Part shown: piece by piece, positions 3,812 through 44,250 of the stretch
Layout of the letters: every line of letters starts with the position of its first letter
How positions within the stretch are numbered: position 1 is the stretch's first letter
IMG/VR virus record: IMGVR_UViG_3300050821_013501
Span: 1 to 50,413 of that record
Length of the DNA stretch: 50,413 nucleotides
Reading direction: 5' to 3' (one strand)
Origin: a virus
Position numbers and translations under genes: made by a program
Notes under the pieces: generated by a model
The model's database searches: none
Seen by the model: only the letters and a program-made list of their open reading frames with translations
What the model was told of the DNA's origin: nothing

Positions 3812-5191
3812 ATGTCTAACGTCCCCTATATCGCAACAACCGAAGCCGTCACGGTTCATATCAACGGTCGTCCAAAGAGCCTACGTCTCGATACTGCGCA
3901 AGGTCAAAAGCTCCTCGCTGCACTTCGCAAGAAGGAGCACGATTTCGATGAAATCTGTCTGATCGCAGATATGCCTGCCTATATCGCCAAGTACACGTCT
4001 GGACGTGTTACGGTTGACGAGAAAGACCAACTCTATCTCGATGGCGAGATAGTCGATTTTGGTGTCGCTGGCGTCATCACGCGCATGATCAACGATGGCG
4101 CGGATGTCAGCCACCTGACACTGTTTCTCGAAGATGTAGCCCGGAATCCGGATAAGGAAATCGCCAATCACCTATACCGCTTCCTCGAAGTTGGTGGTCT
4201 GCCGATCACGCCGGATGGTTGCTTCCATGCATTCAAACGTGTTCAAGATGATTATTTCTCCTATCATAGTGGCAGCGAATCGGTCATGGTCATCACGTTT
4301 GACGAAAATGATGTCGTCAAAGATTCAAAGAGCTACGTCGGAAAAATTCCGCATATGGTCGGTTCTATGCTTGTCATGGATCGCACCCTCTGTGATCCCG
4401 ACCGTAATCGGACATGCTCGGTCGGATTGCATGCCTGCTCATTCGACTATCTCCAACATTATATGGGCAACGCTGGCAGAGTCGTCGTCGTCAAAATCAA
4501 GCCGAGCGAAGTTACCGCAATTCCGTCCGACTACAACGATACGAAGTTGCGCTGCTGCGCCATGGAGATCGTTGATGAAATTTCGGCAGAAAGTGCTGCG
4601 GAGCATTTCAAAAAGGTCGTCGAAGACCGTTATACTTCCCAGCCGGAATCGGCAGCAACTGAAGAAGCCGACGAAAATGATCTTACTCTGGGCTGGAGCG
4701 AGGACGATAACGGCTGCGGCGATCCGGATTGCCCTGATTGCTATCCGATTTCCGATATTCCCAATGAGGAAGATGAGGAAGACGAAGAGGAAGCTATTGG
4801 CTTTGTGACCGTCGTGCGTTGGGCACGGGAAGATGCCGAAGAATGTGCGGTAAACGATTCCATCAGTAAAATCTTCGCGTGCGAACACGAAGAAGGCGAA
4901 CACTGGGGCGAAGTTCCAGAGCATCTCGAACGCACTTATATGCTTCACTATGTGGTCTCATACGTCGATAATTTCGAACTGGATGAATATGCCAGCGAGC
5001 GTGCTTACGATGAAGGCGTCGTCGATGGTGAAGCTATCGGTCATGAAGATTTCTCAGGAAGCGACACCAATAACGGATTCCTTCTTTGCACTCTAGACGG
5101 TGCTTCTCAGTCCGAGATACCGGAGGAGCACATGACAGCTTATGATCTTGGGTATGCTGTTGGCTACCTCAACGCATGGAATTTGTTCTAA
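3812..5191 (+). CDS. rIIB: RIIB-like protein with acidic C-terminal extension
   Basis: Partner of the upstream rIIA homologue, 459 aa. The conserved rIIB core is visible: FLEDVARNP, PITPDGCFHAFK, DDYFSYHSG, CSVGLHACS and a K-P-S-E-V...IPSDYNDTKLR segment, ending near residue 275. The remaining 180 residues are strongly acidic (EEDEEDEEE) and carry CGDPDCPDC, an extension that is unusual compared with T4 RIIB. ATG 3812 is chosen because AAAGGA precedes it and the conserved region begins there; the open frame upstream overlaps rIIA. Confidence 0.85.
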   Translation: MSNVPYIATTEAVTVHINGRPKSLRLDTAQGQKLLAALRKKEHDFDEICLIADMPAYIAKYTSGRVTVDEKDQLYLDGEIVDFGVAGVITRMINDGADVSHLTLFLEDVARNPDKEIANHLYRFLEVGGLPITPDGCFHAFKRVQDDYFSYHSGSESVMVITFDENDVVKDSKSYVGKIPHMVGSMLVMDRTLCDPDRNRTCSVGLHACSFDYLQHYMGNAGRVVVVKIKPSEVTAIPSDYNDTKLRCCAMEIVDEISAESAAEHFKKVVEDRYTSQPESAATEEADENDLTLGWSEDDNGCGDPDCPDCYPISDIPNEEDEEDEEEAIGFVTVVRWAREDAEECAVNDSISKIFACEHEEGEHWGEVPEHLERTYMLHYVVSYVDNFELDEYASERAYDEGVVDGEAIGHEDFSGSDTNNGFLLCTLDGASQSEIPEEHMTAYDLGYAVGYLNAWNLF

Positions 5192-6690: not shown

Positions 6691-7680
6691 ATGACACAGT
6701 CAGCACATCATCCCGTAAAGAGTTTTGTCGAATTGCTTGGTGCAATTAAGCTAGACGCGCTCCAAACATTTTTTGTGGCGGCGGACGCAGCGAACGTTGA
6801 GTATCTTCTCAGCCTGAACGTCAACAACCGTCCCATGCGTCCCTCCCACGTGGAATGGCTCAGCAGCATGATCGCACAGGGCGAATATCATGCGACCGCG
6901 CAAGGAATTACTGTTCTGCGCGGTGGCATTCTCGGGGATGGGCAGCATCGTCTGCACGCGTTTCGCAAGGTCGGCTTCTGCCCGAATTTCCCGCTTCTTG
7001 TCGTGACTGGTGCCGATCCACGTGCAGGCGCTGCCATCGATACGGGATTGAAGCGGACAGCATCAGATTTGATGAAGTTTGTTTTTGACCGTCCGGAAGC
7101 GACCGGGACAACGATGGCGGTCTGTCGCTTCCATGGTCTCTATGGTGCTACTGATAAGCCCATCAGCAATCCAAAGGCCCATAAGGCAACCCCGCAGCAA
7201 TTGCTGGAATGGTATGAGTATCTCTCACCGGCCCTGACGACGCTTGCCGAGGTCTCTTACATGTCACGCCTCCCCGCTCCGGTCACCTGTGCATTGGCCG
7301 AAGCGATAATTGCAGGCGAAGATTCGAAGAAGGTCACCGAATTCGGACGACGTATCGCTACAGGTGCAGATTGTGCCGATGGTTCGCCAGAATTGGCTCT
7401 CCGGCGTTACCTCGACAAGGCATACGGATCGTCGGGCGGCGCTGAAGTGCAAAACATTCGCTATGCCAAGACCGCTGCCGCTTTGGAACATTTCCTGCAA
7501 GACAAGCAGATGACGCGGTTGATCGGCAAAAAAGCTCTCCCGAAAAAGAAGGTTACCAATACGCCGCTATTCGACGACGTACTGCGTGAGACCGTTGAGG
7601 CCAAAACTGCCGAGATCGCCGAAGAGGCTCTTGCCTTTTCCCGAGAGGCTGTTCCCTTTCTTGGCATCCAAAACAAATAA
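6691..7680 (+). CDS. ParB/sulfiredoxin-like domain protein with DGQHRL motif
   Basis: 329 aa. Residues about 40-125 match the phage ParB-like pattern: VNNRPMRPSHVEWLSSMIAQG, ITVLRGGILGDGQHRLHAF (DGQHRL at 83-88) and AAIDTGLKRTASDL. ParB-like domains bind or hydrolyse nucleotides and often bind DNA; the role here is unknown. ATG 6691 follows TAGGAG with good spacing, 10 nt after the SPFH stop. The last 40 bases (CTTGGCATCCAAAACAAATAAGGA) resemble the end of the SPFH gene, and a 24-bp segment recurs at 9880-9903. Confidence 0.75.
   Translation: MTQSAHHPVKSFVELLGAIKLDALQTFFVAADAANVEYLLSLNVNNRPMRPSHVEWLSSMIAQGEYHATAQGITVLRGGILGDGQHRLHAFRKVGFCPNFPLLVVTGADPRAGAAIDTGLKRTASDLMKFVFDRPEATGTTMAVCRFHGLYGATDKPISNPKAHKATPQQLLEWYEYLSPALTTLAEVSYMSRLPAPVTCALAEAIIAGEDSKKVTEFGRRIATGADCADGSPELALRRYLDKAYGSSGGAEVQNIRYAKTAAALEHFLQDKQMTRLIGKKALPKKKVTNTPLFDDVLRETVEAKTAEIAEEALAFSREAVPFLGIQNK
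7628..7651 (+). repeat. 24-bp direct repeat, copy 1 (3' end of ParB-like gene)
   Basis: This 24-bp segment (starting CTCTTGCC, ending GAGAGGCTG) recurs exactly at 9880-9903, just behind the RNA array terminator. Here it is coding. Confidence 0.8.
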
Positions 7681-7690
7681 GGAATCTAAA

Positions 7691-8413
7691 ATGTCTCGCT
7701 CGATAAAGCCCGAACTTCAGCAGATCGGAATGGATGCCCCGGCTTCTCTTTACATGGCTGCTTCGAATGCATTGAGTAAGGTATCCAAAAACGCGTTTGC
7801 TGCCCGTCGCGAATTCCATAGAATGATTATGGAGGACGAGAGTTTGTTAATCGAACTTGAATTGGATTACCTACGCGAAGTTGCTGAAGACATGAGATTC
7901 GGTCGCAAGATCGAGGGAGGCCAGACATCGTCTGAAACCCAGAATGGCGCTGCCTCCCAAATTTTCGCCAGTGATGGCGACGGAGACCAAAAACCATATG
8001 AACTCCAAACGGCGGCTGTCTCCGACTCCTTGGCTGAGAGGGAGAGCCTGCGCAAGATTGAACCCCGTATCCAATGTGCGCCTTCTCAGCCGAAACCTAT
8101 CCGCGTCTCCGAACACTACCGCCGCGCTGCCCGTTTCGAAGCAGCAGATGCAAGTGCCGGGAGAATTCTCGAATCCTATAAGATGCTCGATGGCCGTCCT
8201 ATCGGGAAGGTGCGCTGGCACGAACTTAAAACGCTCGCGACACGCGGAAAATTTGAAGGTGCTTTGTGTGAAAACCTTTCTCGGCGTTATTCGCGCGTCG
8301 CCGATCCCTTTGCAGAACTTGGCACCCTCTTCAGCAATGACGAGATCGAATGTGCGATGAATGAAGTAAAGGATGAACTCGTTCTCGGAAAGACATCAAA
8401 TGGAAACGCCTGA
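7691..8413 (+). CDS. Hypothetical protein upstream of the Nop/IS110-like gene
   Basis: 240 aa, unknown. The N-terminal half is helical (SASNALSKVSKNAFAARREF), the middle is low-complexity and polar, and the C-terminal part (about 145-240) is a helical domain with SEHYRRAARFEAADASAG. ATG 7691 follows AAGGAATC. The stop overlaps the start of the next gene by 14 nt, so it is probably translated with it and could be an accessory factor of the RNA-array locus (inference from position). Confidence 0.7.
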   Translation: MSRSIKPELQQIGMDAPASLYMAASNALSKVSKNAFAARREFHRMIMEDESLLIELELDYLREVAEDMRFGRKIEGGQTSSETQNGAASQIFASDGDGDQKPYELQTAAVSDSLAERESLRKIEPRIQCAPSQPKPIRVSEHYRRAARFEAADASAGRILESYKMLDGRPIGKVRWHELKTLATRGKFEGALCENLSRRYSRVADPFAELGTLFSNDEIECAMNEVKDELVLGKTSNGNA

Positions 8414-9347
8414 AACAAAAGTTAAATCAAAACGCCGAAAGTCTTCCGACATCAAAGTTCCGACGAATCAGGAAGACCTTATTCGCGAAATTATCGGCTA
8501 TCATCGTGAAGCACGTTTTGCGTTAAAGCAGCAGGCTAGGTTAGAACGTGCTTGTGAATCTCTCATTGTCTTTCACGTTCTCAAATCCGATCCCAATGAT
8601 AAACCGGCGCTCAAGAAGGCTTATGCCCAAGCGAAAAAAGTTATCAAAGATGCACTCGTCGATCCTAGTCACCCGACGCATCGAGTAGCCATCACGAATG
8701 CGAATGCGGTGCAGCCGATGATCGATCTGCGAGACGACAAAGAATTTGCCATGACAAAGCTTGCGGAGACTTTGCCAGTCTGGCGTGAGTGGGGAAAAGA
8801 TATTCGTGGGTTTGGTTCCTTCGGTCTTGCACAGATTGTCGGCGAGTGTGGTGATCTCACGAAGTACACGACTGTCTCAAAACTCTGGAAACGCCTCGGG
8901 CTCGCTGTGATCGACGGCAAGCGTCAAGGTGCGCCCGGTGAAGGCGCGACAAGCGCGACATGGATCGCACACGGTTACAATCCCACCCGTCGCTCGGTTA
9001 GTTGGAATATCGGACAAGCTTTGTTTAAAGCCCAGAGCGCACGTGTCGATGAAGAAACAGGTGAAGTGTTGTCGGAAGCCGGACACTATCGTGCAATCTA
9101 TGATGCGCGGAAAGTCTACGAACTTACACGAACGAATCTTCTCGTTGTGGCGCATAAACGCGCTATGCGCTATATGGAGAAAATCTTTCTCGCCGATCTT
9201 TGGTCGGCGTGGCGTCAGGCCAACCGCTCGGTGAAACCCACAGATCAATTGCCTGACGCCAGAGCTTGCGACGGGAGCGATCCTGACAATCATGAACCCC
9301 TGCACAAGAGTGTCGCTACCGTCGTACCTGAATTGGAGGCTGCATAG
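8400..9347 (+). CDS. Nop-domain / IS110 C-terminal (Transposase_20)-like protein, Tas-like candidate
   Basis: 315 aa. Residues about 20-95 are a helical, coiled-coil-like region (REARFALKQQARLERA). Residues 130-170 contain the helix-hairpin-helix-like IRGFGSFGLAQIVGECGDL...WKRLGLAV pattern of the IS110 family C-terminal domain. The helix AHKRAMRYMEKIFLADLWSAWR (about 251-272) corresponds to its end. The IS110 N-terminal RuvC-like DEDD domain is absent, and the usual Ser-Gly-Gly around the catalytic serine is not evident. No HNH motif is seen. IS110 C-terminal domains are related to Nop domains of box C/D RNPs and to Tas proteins, all guide-RNA binders. The RNA hairpin array begins 4 nt after the TAG stop, so this is probably its RNA-binding partner. 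A degenerate transposase is the alternative. Confidence 0.75.
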   Translation: METPETKVKSKRRKSSDIKVPTNQEDLIREIIGYHREARFALKQQARLERACESLIVFHVLKSDPNDKPALKKAYAQAKKVIKDALVDPSHPTHRVAITNANAVQPMIDLRDDKEFAMTKLAETLPVWREWGKDIRGFGSFGLAQIVGECGDLTKYTTVSKLWKRLGLAVIDGKRQGAPGEGATSATWIAHGYNPTRRSVSWNIGQALFKAQSARVDEETGEVLSEAGHYRAIYDARKVYELTRTNLLVVAHKRAMRYMEKIFLADLWSAWRQANRSVKPTDQLPDARACDGSDPDNHEPLHKSVATVVPELEAA

Positions 9348-9350
9348 TTT

Positions 9351-9869
9351 CCGCGCGAGCGGAGCGTCCAACCTATTGAACTGTGAAACCCTACGACGAG
9401 TTGTTGGACGCGCAATTTGTGACGAGAGAGACCTGTTGTAATCTGAAACCCTACGTCGGACTGTCGCTCTCGTCACGTCTAATAGAGGAGAAAGAAATTC
9501 CACGAAGGTGGAAGCGTCGGACCGATCACACCATGAAACCCTTTGCTAATTTGTCTGGCGCAGAATTTGTGATGAGAGCGACCAGTAGTTCATTGAGACC
9601 CTGTTGAGAAATGTCGCTCTCGTCGCATCACTAATGGAGAAAGAAATTCTCGTGAAAGCGAGAGCGTCGGACCTACGTAAATTTGAAACCCTTATGTGAT
9701 ATGTTCGACGCATAATTTGTGATGAGAGCGACCTTACCACCCACGAGACCCTAATGAGGACTGTCGCTCTCGTCGCATCTAATCAAGGAGACAGAATTCC
9801 CGTGCTCACGGGAGCGCCGGACCCGAGTGATCGTGAAACCCATGGATGGCCTGTCCGGCGCATTTTTTT
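9351..9869 (+). ncRNA. Tandem dual-variable-loop RNA array (TIGR-like / bridge-RNA-like)
   Basis: Seven hairpins with exact 150-bp periodicity. Type I stems start at 9364, 9514, 9664 and 9814; type II stems at 9421, 9571 and 9721. Each 150-bp unit is: small GNRA-like hairpin, type I hairpin (9-bp stem), type II hairpin (9 to 12 bp). Type I stems covary: GCGTCCAAC/GTTGGACGC, GCGTCGGAC/GTCTGGCGC, GCGTCGGAC/GTTCGACGC, GCGCCGGAC/GTCCGGCGC. Every loop is exactly 30 nt: C, 10 variable, an 8-nt core (TGAAACCC in five, TGAGACCC in H4, CGAGACCC in H6), 10 variable, T. Variable pairs: H1 tattgaactg, tacgacgagt; H2 tgttgtaatc, tacgtcggac; H3 gatcacacca, tttgctaatt; H4 agtagttcat, tgttgagaaa; H5 tacgtaaatt, ttatgtgata; H6 ttaccaccca, taatgaggac; H7 cgagtgatcg, atggatggcc. 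A box C-like GTGATGA precedes stems H4 and H6. No protein is encoded here. Confidence 0.9.
9814..9869 (+). terminator. Rho-independent terminator formed by the last array hairpin
   Basis: GCGCCGGAC (9814-9822) pairs perfectly with GTCCGGCGC (9853-9861) and is followed by A and seven T. The loop still has the 30-nt guide-like format, so the seventh hairpin serves both as array member and terminator. Confidence 0.8.
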
Positions 9870-9879
9870 CTGGGGATGC

Positions 9880-9903
9880 CTCTTGCCTTTTCCCGAGAGG
9901 CTG
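9880..9903 (+). repeat. 24-bp direct repeat, copy 2 (non-coding)
   Basis: Exact copy of 7628-7651 from the 3' end of the ParB-like gene, followed by AAATAGGAG, which also resembles the post-stop region of that gene. Here it follows the array terminator and is probably a recombination or duplication scar. GCCTCT (9878-9883) can pair with AGAGGC (9896-9901). Confidence 0.75.
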
Positions 9904-15972: not shown

Positions 15973-16161
15973 TTGATACTTTCGCCTGATCTCAACTGTC
16001 AGGGCGGCTTTCGATAACCGCTTCGGTCCACCTTGCACTACGCGTCCCCGGATATCGAGGATGGATCGATTTGCACGACCTCTCAGCTTCCCCACATTCC
16101 GCCATTAGCTCCGACTTAGCAGTGTTGCAACACCTCAGTCGAGGTCAGGCGAAAATATCAA
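15973..16161 (-). ncRNA. Structured RNA closed by a 21-bp stem, unidentified
   Basis: The arms 16161-16141 and 15993-15973 pair over 21 positions with one mismatch and one wobble. They enclose about 148 nt with further hairpins (GTGTTGCAACAC, GCGG...CCGC). At 189 nt it is the size of a 6S-type RNA, but the interior does not fold as a simple rod. The 9-mer TCAGGCGAA in the closing stem is shared with the tmRNA coding piece. Confidence 0.55.
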
Positions 16162-16505
16162 GTTGGGTGGTGCTTCCTGTTGCCGCCTGCACCACCCGAA
16201 AGGCCTCCGCAGCTAATTAGGCCGCGAGACGAAGAGCCATCGGCTCGTTGTCGTTGACATTTCTGTCGTTTAATCGAGCGGTAGTGGAAGCTACCCGGAG
16301 ATAAGTCCGTGCTGCGTCAATCGCTTCGCCTGACAATCGAGTCCCAAATCATCCCCCTCAGAAGCACCCCTGACACTGCTACCCGTGGCTTTCGGCCCAT
16401 TAAAGGCGGCGAGGCGCTTTTGGTGGAGATGCCCGGATTCGAACCGGGGTCTTGCCACGACTTACCGACCGCTTTTTACAGCAATCATCTGTCGCTTATA
16501 CCGAC
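16155..16505 (-). ncRNA. ssrA: Permuted two-piece tmRNA
   Basis: The acceptor piece comes first: T-arm CCCGG-TTCGAAT-CCGGG, then CATCTCC, A and encoded CCA ending at 16421. After a 64-nt spacer the coding piece starts at 16356 with GGGGATGATTTGGGACTCGA, which matches the tmRNA 5' consensus. GGGGATG pairs with CATCTCC and gives the diagnostic G3:U70 wobble. TTGTCA (coding) can pair with TGGCAA (acceptor) as P2. The tag frame at 16258-16217 reads V-NDNEPMALRLAA-stop, a typical tmRNA tag with NDN and LAA; the first codon is GTC rather than the usual Ala. A GGGTGGTGC/GCACCACCC hairpin follows. The outer ends are approximate. Permuted tmRNAs are typical of Alphaproteobacteria, so this is probably of host-lineage origin. 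Confidence 0.85.
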
Positions 16506-16506
16506 A

Positions 16507-16995
16507 CTAGGCAGCCCTGTCAAGCTTTGATTTTTTGGCAGCCAGCCATTTTCTCTGGAATTTTTGGCGGCATGTCCGGCATGTTCTTGTACCGTCTTTC
16601 TTATCAATAGTATTTTCTGGCGTCATTTCATGCCCTTCTCGGCATTTCCCACTCGCACGCAGTTTCCAATGCATTTCCTTGCCATTCTCCCGATAAGCCG
16701 CAACACGTCTTCTATTATTTTCGGCGCGTGTTACAATCTCCATATGATCTGGATTTACACATAATTTGTTTCGACATAAATGATCGGGTTCATAGCCGGG
16801 AGCAATTGGTCCATGAATTTGCTCCATGATCCATTTATAAGCACCAACTGTCCTACGCGTGCCATCTGGACGCGTATACCCTATTTTTGAATAACCACGC
16901 CCGCATGTTCCGGCCTGCCATTGCCAGCATCCTGTTACGGGATCGACAATATATTTTTCGTGAAACAGTTCGAGCGTGGTTTTCTTAGTTCGCAT
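16507..16995 (-). CDS. HNH homing endonuclease-type protein
   Basis: 162 aa. The HNH core is DHLCRNKLCVNPDHMEIVT (about residues 71-89) after an N-terminal GCWQWQAGTCGRGYSKIGY segment typical of phage HNH proteins. A C-terminal zinc-ribbon-like CREGHEMTPEN...CRTCRQKFQRKW follows. ATG 16995 overlaps the upstream stop in TAATG. It lies directly upstream of the tmRNA acceptor piece and may be a selfish insertion beside this RNA gene. Stop TAG. Confidence 0.85.
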   Translation of the reverse strand: MRTKKTTLELFHEKYIVDPVTGCWQWQAGTCGRGYSKIGYTRPDGTRRTVGAYKWIMEQIHGPIAPGYEPDHLCRNKLCVNPDHMEIVTRAENNRRRVAAYRENGKEMHWKLRASGKCREGHEMTPENTIDKKDGTRTCRTCRQKFQRKWLAAKKSKLDRAA

Positions 16996-17521: not shown

Positions 17522-17595
17522 TGGTGCCCCGCGTCGGGTTTGAACCGACATAGGCGATTTTAGAGATCGCTGCTTTACCAGTCAGCCAGCGGAGC
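17522..17595 (-). tRNA. tRNA with anticodon CTA (amber-suppressor type)
   Basis: Complete 74-nt cloverleaf: acceptor GCTCCGC/GCGGGGC (7 pairs, one wobble), TG, D-arm GCTGACTGGTAAAGC, anticodon stem GCGAT/ATCGC with loop CTCTAAA (U33, anticodon CTA), 4-nt variable loop, T-arm GTCGG-TTCAAAC-CCGAC, A73 and encoded CCA. CTA reads the UAG stop codon. The amino acid is not evident. It is the first RNA after the promoter at 17613-17641. Confidence 0.85.
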
Positions 17596-43778: not shown

Positions 43779-44250
43779 CTAGAGTCAGCTTTTCCATGGT
43801 GGCTATGTGTTCTTCTTCCCACTCCTCTCGGGCCTCAAGTACGGCCTCGTCGATCATGTGCTCAACAAAGCGATCCATGGTGGCTATGTGTTCTTCTTCC
43901 CACTCCTCTCGGGCCTCAAGTACGGCCTCGTCGATCATGTGCTCAACAAAGCGATCCATCGCGGAAATCACTTCCGAAGCAAAATAGTTTGTCTTCGAAA
44001 GCAGACCACCTGTTACATGGCAGTAGACAAGAGAGACCTGCTCCAGCAAAAACTTATAATCATTGAGTTCGTTCTGAACGTCTTGCGCAAGTGCGCCTTC
44101 AGGATAGACAAATTTGTTCCAGAACTCAGCCGACATCAGCCGCCGAGTCGTTCCGATCAATTTCTGAGCCTCTTCCGGAGTCAAGAGAAGACCAGTCTCG
44201 GTTATGCGTCGTTCGATCTGACTGAGTTCGTCATGGGAAATGGCGCTCAT
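43771..44250 (-). CDS. Protein with perfect 27-aa tandem duplication
   Basis: 159 aa. The N-terminal part is helical (ISHDELSQIERRITETGLLLTPEEAQKLIGTTRRLM). Residues about 99-152 consist of two identical copies of a 27-aa unit (MDRFVEHMIDEAVLEAREEWEEEHIAT), which comes from an 81-bp DNA duplication. The helical acidic repeat can form a longer coiled coil. Unknown function. The start overlaps the NAMPT stop (ATGA). Confidence 0.7.
   Translation of the reverse strand: MSAISHDELSQIERRITETGLLLTPEEAQKLIGTTRRLMSAEFWNKFVYPEGALAQDVQNELNDYKFLLEQVSLVYCHVTGGLLSKTNYFASEVISAMDRFVEHMIDEAVLEAREEWEEEHIATMDRFVEHMIDEAVLEAREEWEEEHIATMEKLTLDD
43793..43954. repeat. Perfect 81-bp tandem duplication (two copies)
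   Basis: 43793-43873 and 43874-43954 are identical and in frame, 27 codons each. Exact identity implies a recent event. Confidence 0.9.

Follow-up and report, generated by a model that had tools for sequence, protein, structure and literature searches.

Organization of the locus

In this work we describe a locus in the IMG/VR virus record IMGVR_UViG_3300050821_013501, a single viral record that was analysed over its whole length of 50,413 bases (the window). The locus consists of tas, a gene for a Nop-domain protein of the TIGR-Tas type, a helical gene directly 5' of it (here termed gene P), and a series of hairpins that each carry two variable segments (spacers) and are regarded here as guide units. 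A scan of the 50 kb for the loop together with a closing stem yielded 12 such units, all on the plus strand between 7.9 and 9.86 kb and thus within 2 kb. A preliminary description, made from the sequence alone, had reported an array of seven hairpins; the five that it missed all lie in coding sequence. The elements of the locus are as follows.

7691..8413, plus strand: gene P, helical partner gene, 240 amino acids; putative member of a family conserved directly 5' of tas in relatives; contains a disordered linker with three guide units
7915..7958, plus strand: guide unit 1, core 7933, inside gene P
7981..8024, plus strand: guide unit 2, core 7999, inside gene P
8038..8087, plus strand: guide unit 3, core 8059, two stem mismatches, inside gene P
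8400..9347, plus strand: tasA, Nop-domain TIGR-Tas protein without nuclease domain, 315 amino acids; ATG at 8400, the open reading frame could start at 8373; stop codon TAG
9210..9261, plus strand: guide unit 4, core 9232, inside tas; the 5' stem arm forms codons of the conserved C-terminal W-R-x-A
9272..9321, plus strand: guide unit 5, core 9293, inside the disordered tail of tas
9350..9363, plus strand: accessory hairpin before unit 6, loop GCGA
9364..9411, plus strand: guide unit 6, core 9384
9423..9472, plus strand: guide unit 7, core 9444
9498..9513, plus strand: accessory hairpin, loop GAAG
9514..9561, plus strand: guide unit 8, core 9534
9568..9627, plus strand: guide unit 9, core 9594, 15-bp stem
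9648..9663, plus strand: accessory hairpin, loop GAAA
9664..9711, plus strand: guide unit 10, core 9684
9718..9777, plus strand: guide unit 11, core 9744, which reads CGAGACCC, 15-bp stem
9798..9813, plus strand: accessory hairpin, loop GCTC
9814..9861, plus strand: guide unit 12, core 9834
9863..9869, plus strand: run of seven T directly 3' of the last guide stem, the probable transcript end

A Nop-domain protein without a nuclease domain

The reading frame at 8400-9347 encodes a nuclease-less Tas protein of the TasA type. In phmmer the window protein matched TasR (9mty_A) with an E value of 1.4e-9, and a profile of the Tas family matched TasR (9mty) at 3.1e-17 and TasH at 0.0017. An AlphaFold2 model of the protein was confident (pLDDT, the predicted local distance difference test, 84; pTM, the predicted template modelling score, 0.77) apart from the tail formed by residues 281-315, within which guide unit 5 is encoded. 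The Nop/IS110 fold that had been predicted for this protein in the preliminary description was found when the model was aligned to known structures with VIA-align: TasR was the top match (Z 16.8 over 188 amino acids, 2.8 A), followed by TasH (Z about 15) and by the IS110 recombinases IS621/ISCro4, for which a Z of 12.3-12.8 applied to the Nop part only. Prp31/Nop reached a Z of about 7, a level for which shared helices could equally account. The fold begins at the coiled coil at residue 24, and outside it there is only a short tail. Because nothing precedes the coiled coil, there is no room for a RuvC or HNH domain, which places the protein in the TasA type. Indeed, neither a fused HNH or RuvC domain nor an N-terminal DEDD/RuvC-like catalytic domain was present in the model and the fold alignment of the 315 amino acids. 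Weak 'Csn2' matches on the coiled coil (PADLOC, Pfam) were put down to chance. The tas stop codon at 9345-9347 is TAG, and read-through would stop at the TGA of the first downstream guide core. A tRNA with a CUA anticodon, called tRNA-Pyl by ARAGORN and possibly an amber suppressor, is encoded at 17522-17595 on the minus strand.

Anatomy of the guide units

The units in the window were detected as C-N10-(Y/T)G-core-CC-N10-T with a closing stem. Each consists of a box C 'CC', 10 nt, the core region 'TG-N4-CC', another 10 nt and a box D 'TG', all closed by the stem. In shuffled sequences the loop and stem scan gave a mean of 0.8 and a maximum of 4 matches, and a stricter scan gave none. Units 1-3 lie in the reading frame 7691-8413 and units 4-5 in the 3' end of tas. 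The seven loops reported before, composed of C, 10 nt, TGARACCC (CGAGACCC in the sixth), 10 nt and T, are present letter for letter with cores at 9384-9834. Their exact 150-bp period holds as a sum, but really arises from two interleaved series with cores at 9384/9534/9684/9834 and 9444/9594/9744, so that the spacing alternates between 60 and 90 bp.

Each unit of the first series has a small hairpin directly 5'. This extra hairpin had been called GNRA-type, which is correct for two of the four copies (GCGA and GAAA) but not for GAAG and GCTC. When the first-series stem and the small hairpin are taken together, all 15 base pairs are kept over the four copies and seven of the 15 have changed on both sides, compared with a mean of 2.9 in shuffles and 0-1 in slid controls. 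The stem covariation noticed earlier stands for the first series; the stems of the second show hardly any variation. On the minus strand, the accessory hairpins at 9498-9513, 9648-9663 and 9798-9813 look terminator-like, with T-rich tracts after them there.

Guide units accompany tas in relatives and exchange their spacers

Relatives were collected with a 49-aa conserved core of the Tas protein, which recovered 32 loci, 27 of them viral and five from bacterial genomes. A further Tas relative was located among annotated phages, in Rhizobium phage RHph_X2_25, so that the set comprised 34 loci with the window included. No close relative of the window Tas protein was obtained with simple back-translated patterns and no Tas relative was present in the plasmid collection searched. 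The row of the Rhizobium phage was left out of the folding alignment. Over the 34 loci, 169 units were detected on the tas strand, two on the other strand and none in shuffles; 12 loci had no match with this unit detector. The units are confined to the neighbourhood of tas: on 19 related contigs, 138 sense and two antisense units lay at most 3 kb from the gene, and the remaining approximately 1 Mb gave nine chance-like matches. Several of these 12 loci have stem-loop arrays of other types, seen at locus L019 (4451-5300), with a GCCGAAAGGC-like mini-hairpin in the loop, and at L026 (2570-4543), with units of the form AAGACC-N10-GTCGAATGACC-N10-GTCA.

In the relatives, the nucleotide after the two 'CC' motifs is A in 130 and 120 of 154 cases, respectively, which indicates that box C is CCA and that the spacers are 9 nt long. 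Box D is the same at the loop and at the edge (CG/CG or TG/TG) in 135 of 154 units. This agreement is the UG...CCA logic of TIGR, the box rules of which are given by Faure et al. (2025, PMC12045711); here and below, statements on that paper refer to the available parts of it.

We found that the spacers vary between loci while the scaffold is kept. Pairs of units from different phages with identical stems shared 4.75 of 18 spacer bases, as compared with 4.63 in random pairs. Likewise, the closely related loci L005 and L006, which have units inside tas itself, are 89% identical in the tas flanks, 95% in the stems and 81% in the cores, but only 31% in the spacers, and L006 contains one extra 66-nt unit, inserted in frame. 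Taken together, the identical-stem pairs and these two loci indicate that spacers are exchanged as cassettes with scaffold and frame kept. In the preliminary description, conservation of the 10-nt segments among relatives had been named as evidence that would speak against guides; they vary at the random level, and it is the stems that are conserved. Close phage pairs with identical stems and replaced spacers represent concrete exchange events and offer a means of studying guide acquisition in the absence of Cas1-like machinery.

Guides inside coding genes

The guides inside coding genes, which the preliminary description had overlooked, appear to be the novel part of this system. Among the 20 loci with this unit type, tas contains 57 units and the partner gene 12, and neither gene has any in antisense orientation; part of the 57 is less certain because the start codon is less certain in L018, L023, L027, L028 and L033. 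C-terminal coding units are certain in the window, L011, L023, L027 and L033, as the stop codon lies beyond the units. In L011 the tas stop codon falls within spacer B of the last unit (4486-4503) and in L029 within the loop core (4374-4381). N-terminal units were found in L002-L007 and L009, where they follow a start codon with a Shine-Dalgarno sequence and a conserved N-terminal motif and precede the Nop domain. Between L005 and L006, the 18 codons ahead of the first unit show changes at third positions only (0,0,4). In the window, units 1-3 occupy the disordered linker within gene P, an insertion that gene P of the relatives does not have. The most array-like coding gene seen was a partner-gene reading frame in L018 (1959-3224), with at least six guide-like units in open frame.

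Given these findings, we consider the chances about even that coding genes double as guide arrays in the following sense: dual-spacer cassettes would sit in frame in disordered linkers of Tas and its partner, their spacers would be replaced wholesale by some exchange mechanism with stems and frame kept, and translation of the effector would compete with guide release for one mRNA. Guides within the coding sequence of their own effector provide a direct handle on regulation, that is, on the use of a transcript as mRNA or as guide.

Relation to described RNA-guided systems

The system is very probably a phage-borne TIGR-TasA with a stem-loop guide array of 12 hairpins, which would most likely act by guided DNA binding without cutting. 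The nuclease-less Tas-like protein with an array that had been suggested before is borne out by sequence, profile, fold and RNA anatomy. The same description saw no obvious fit between the two-hairpin unit, with its extra hairpin and alternating stem types, and either of the two known classes. This does not hold, as TasA with stem-loop TIGR arrays was described in 2025 (Faure et al., 2025, PMC12045711, Fig. 7) and those of nuclease-less TasA include arrays with a conserved loop repeat. Hence the class itself is not new. The window shares with it a solo Nop-domain protein with a coiled coil, the location of the array on the strand of tas, a conserved loop length and stem-loop units in which two spacers of 8-12 nt are flanked by box C and box D. 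It differs in that five of 12 units lie in coding sequence, as do many in relatives, that a second conserved helical gene is present 5' of tas, and that the units come in pairs, which form 150-bp modules together with an additional covarying hairpin. In the main text of PMC12045711, arrays are placed only upstream and/or downstream of tas. Compared with that main text, the coding-embedded guides, the replacement of spacers with stems kept, the unnamed helical gene, the 24-bp repeats described below and the presence of 12 units rather than seven appear to be unreported, and none of the other publications examined discusses stem-loop TIGR arrays. TIGR-Tas itself is a young RNA-guided class.

TIGR-TasR/TasH systems with dual-repeat arrays have the Nop fold (Z 15-17), the UG...CCA box logic and spacers of about 9 nt in common with the window, which in contrast has no nuclease domain and a stem of variable sequence in place of the edge repeat. 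Box C/D snoRNPs (Nop5/56/58, Prp31) resemble it by a distant fold match (Z about 7) and by guides flanked with box C/D; unlike in those particles, the guides here vary like spacers, and an L7-type K-turn protein or fibrillarin was not seen, although no search for them was made.

Proposed mode of action

Building on the protein family and fold, the unit anatomy, the coding overlap, the spacer turnover with stem conservation and the conserved partner gene, we propose the following for expression, processing, DNA binding, feedback and biological role. The 12 guide hairpins would be carried on a single sense-strand transcript that spans gene P, tas and the tail region, and a host RNase would cut the single-stranded linkers between them. 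Each hairpin would present two 9-10-nt spacers, bounded by box C (CC) and box D (TG) both at the closing stem and at the loop. A TasA dimer may then bind one guide, the two spacers of which would pair with opposite strands of one double-stranded DNA site. TasR cleavage leaves 8-nt 3' overhangs (PMC12045711), from which we derived a predicted target consisting of spacer A and then the reverse complement of spacer B, with a gap of 0-2 bp. Guided DNA binding and bending without cleavage has been proposed for TasA (PMC12045711). As there is no nuclease domain, stable binding and bending would be the most likely outcome here as well and could keep a competing mobile element, or a host locus, from being transcribed or replicated. 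With five of 12 guides in frame in gene P and tas, each mRNA molecule would be either translated or cut into guides, and this would constitute a built-in negative feedback.

Several results weigh against this assignment. The preliminary description had proposed to find the two loop segments as paired target sites, and such searches in phage records, IMG/VR scans and related contigs found no target. The 12 window targets gave no match in blastn against phage records; four 18-nt gapped scans of IMG/VR gave 0, 2, 1 and 0 matches in unrelated contexts; 154 distinct guides showed no excess in 1.09 Mb (the window and related phage contigs) in four orientations and compared with shuffles; and two guides of an R. 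esperanzae prophage had no match in 148 genomes of its genus. In the window, the A of box C CCA is kept at only eight of 24 spacers, whereas relatives keep it. The match of the Tas protein to NCBIfam NF052498 'TIGR_Tas_endo' (E 3.2e-22) has 79.6 bits and lies below the curated cut-off of 100. Finally, a scan for sigma-70-like promoters on the plus strand of the locus found none.

Alternative explanations

A possible but doubtful alternative is an RNA-guided regulator of the phage's own genes or those of its host which is not aimed at other mobile elements. The lack of a nuclease and the conserved partner gene would suit such a role, as would the phage itself, which is of virulent type and carries rII genes, a DNA polymerase and a ribonucleotide reductase. 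However, close relatives differ by replaced spacers, which would not be expected of guides for conserved genes, and matches in its own genome were not beyond chance.

Less probable still, and in our view unlikely, is that the hairpins are true TIGR guides but the copies in genes are not used, being fossils or having arisen as by-products when arrays spread through GC-rich open frames. In favour of this, some coding units have stem mismatches (8059), and recombination is a possible means by which TIGR arrays spread. On the other hand, coding units keep perfect loop geometry, boxes, stems and frame, and the turnover of their spacers is as complete as in intergenic units; fossils would keep the spacers and lose the stems.

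We regard it as very improbable that the locus is the remnant of a degenerate IS110-type transposase, with hairpins that correspond to target and donor loops of a bridge RNA. IS110 elements (IS621, ISCro4) do share the Nop-type fold and have two guide loops, their structures reached Z 12.3-12.8 in the fold alignment, PHROG 4285 carries the label 'transposase' and PF02371 is matched by five of 27 relatives. Nevertheless, TasR and TasH outscore IS110 in sequence, profile and fold, and the box agreement between loop and edge is that of TIGR. The bridge-RNA reading, also considered in the preliminary description, is disfavoured by the absence of a DEDD/RuvC domain and of a transposon; transposon ends were not found. 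Moreover, an IS110-type bridge RNA is one RNA with a target and a donor loop, whereas the loci carry four to 12 independent dual-spacer hairpins, in the window 12 separate single-loop guide units.

That the hairpins are cis-acting repeats without guide function (integron attC-like sites, replication iterons or mRNA stability hairpins) is barely tenable, for although tandem hairpins beside genes are common, in these the strictly conserved boxes enclose two unpaired 9-10-nt stretches that are random in sequence; the hairpins also accompany the Tas protein across relatives with this unit type and are not associated with any gene cassettes that we could see.

Partner gene, flanking genes and cassette ends

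A helical gene of about 170-240 amino acids lies directly 5' of tas in the window and in at least 14 relatives and is a candidate for a missing component of nuclease-less TasA. Gene P of the window matched no family in Pfam, NCBIfam or PADLOC and no relative of solved structure, and PHROG gave one weak match. The structure model was poor (pTM 0.29). Identity with relatives is 8-21%, and the homology, which is suggested by position and alignment, is the weakest point of the analysis. The following features flank the cassette.

6691..7680, plus strand: gene for a ParB-like protein of 329 amino acids; tblastn matches annotated 'ParB-like nuclease domain protein'; PHROG 5931; the 3' end holds the left 24-bp repeat
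7628..7651, plus strand: left copy of a perfect 24-bp direct repeat, inside the 3' end of the ParB-like gene
9880..9903, plus strand: right copy of the perfect 24-bp direct repeat, 3' of the array

The ParB-like gene, which had no Pfam match above the cut-off, recalls the TasA-TasParB operons (PMC12045711, fig. S14 according to its methods) by its position just 5' in the window. These operons have dual-repeat arrays; the array in the window is of the stem-loop type and gene P lies between the ParB-like gene and tas, so that the locus does not belong to them. Nor did the relative from the Rhizobium phage show a ParB-like gene 5' of tas.

Gene P, tas and the array are bracketed by the perfect 24-bp direct repeats, which suggests that the cassette came in as one piece. 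The repeat did not recur in seven relatives checked, where the longest shared stretch was 11-14 nt, and an empty site was not found in IMG/VR, which holds no close relative of the flanking gene. Elsewhere in the window, an 81-bp tandem repeat occurs in two perfect copies within a coding region (43793-43959), and positions 16054-16527 on the minus strand encode a phage-borne transfer-messenger RNA (tmRNA) with Rfam matches to alpha_tmRNA and permuted tmRNA and a predicted tag that ends in LDIFA.
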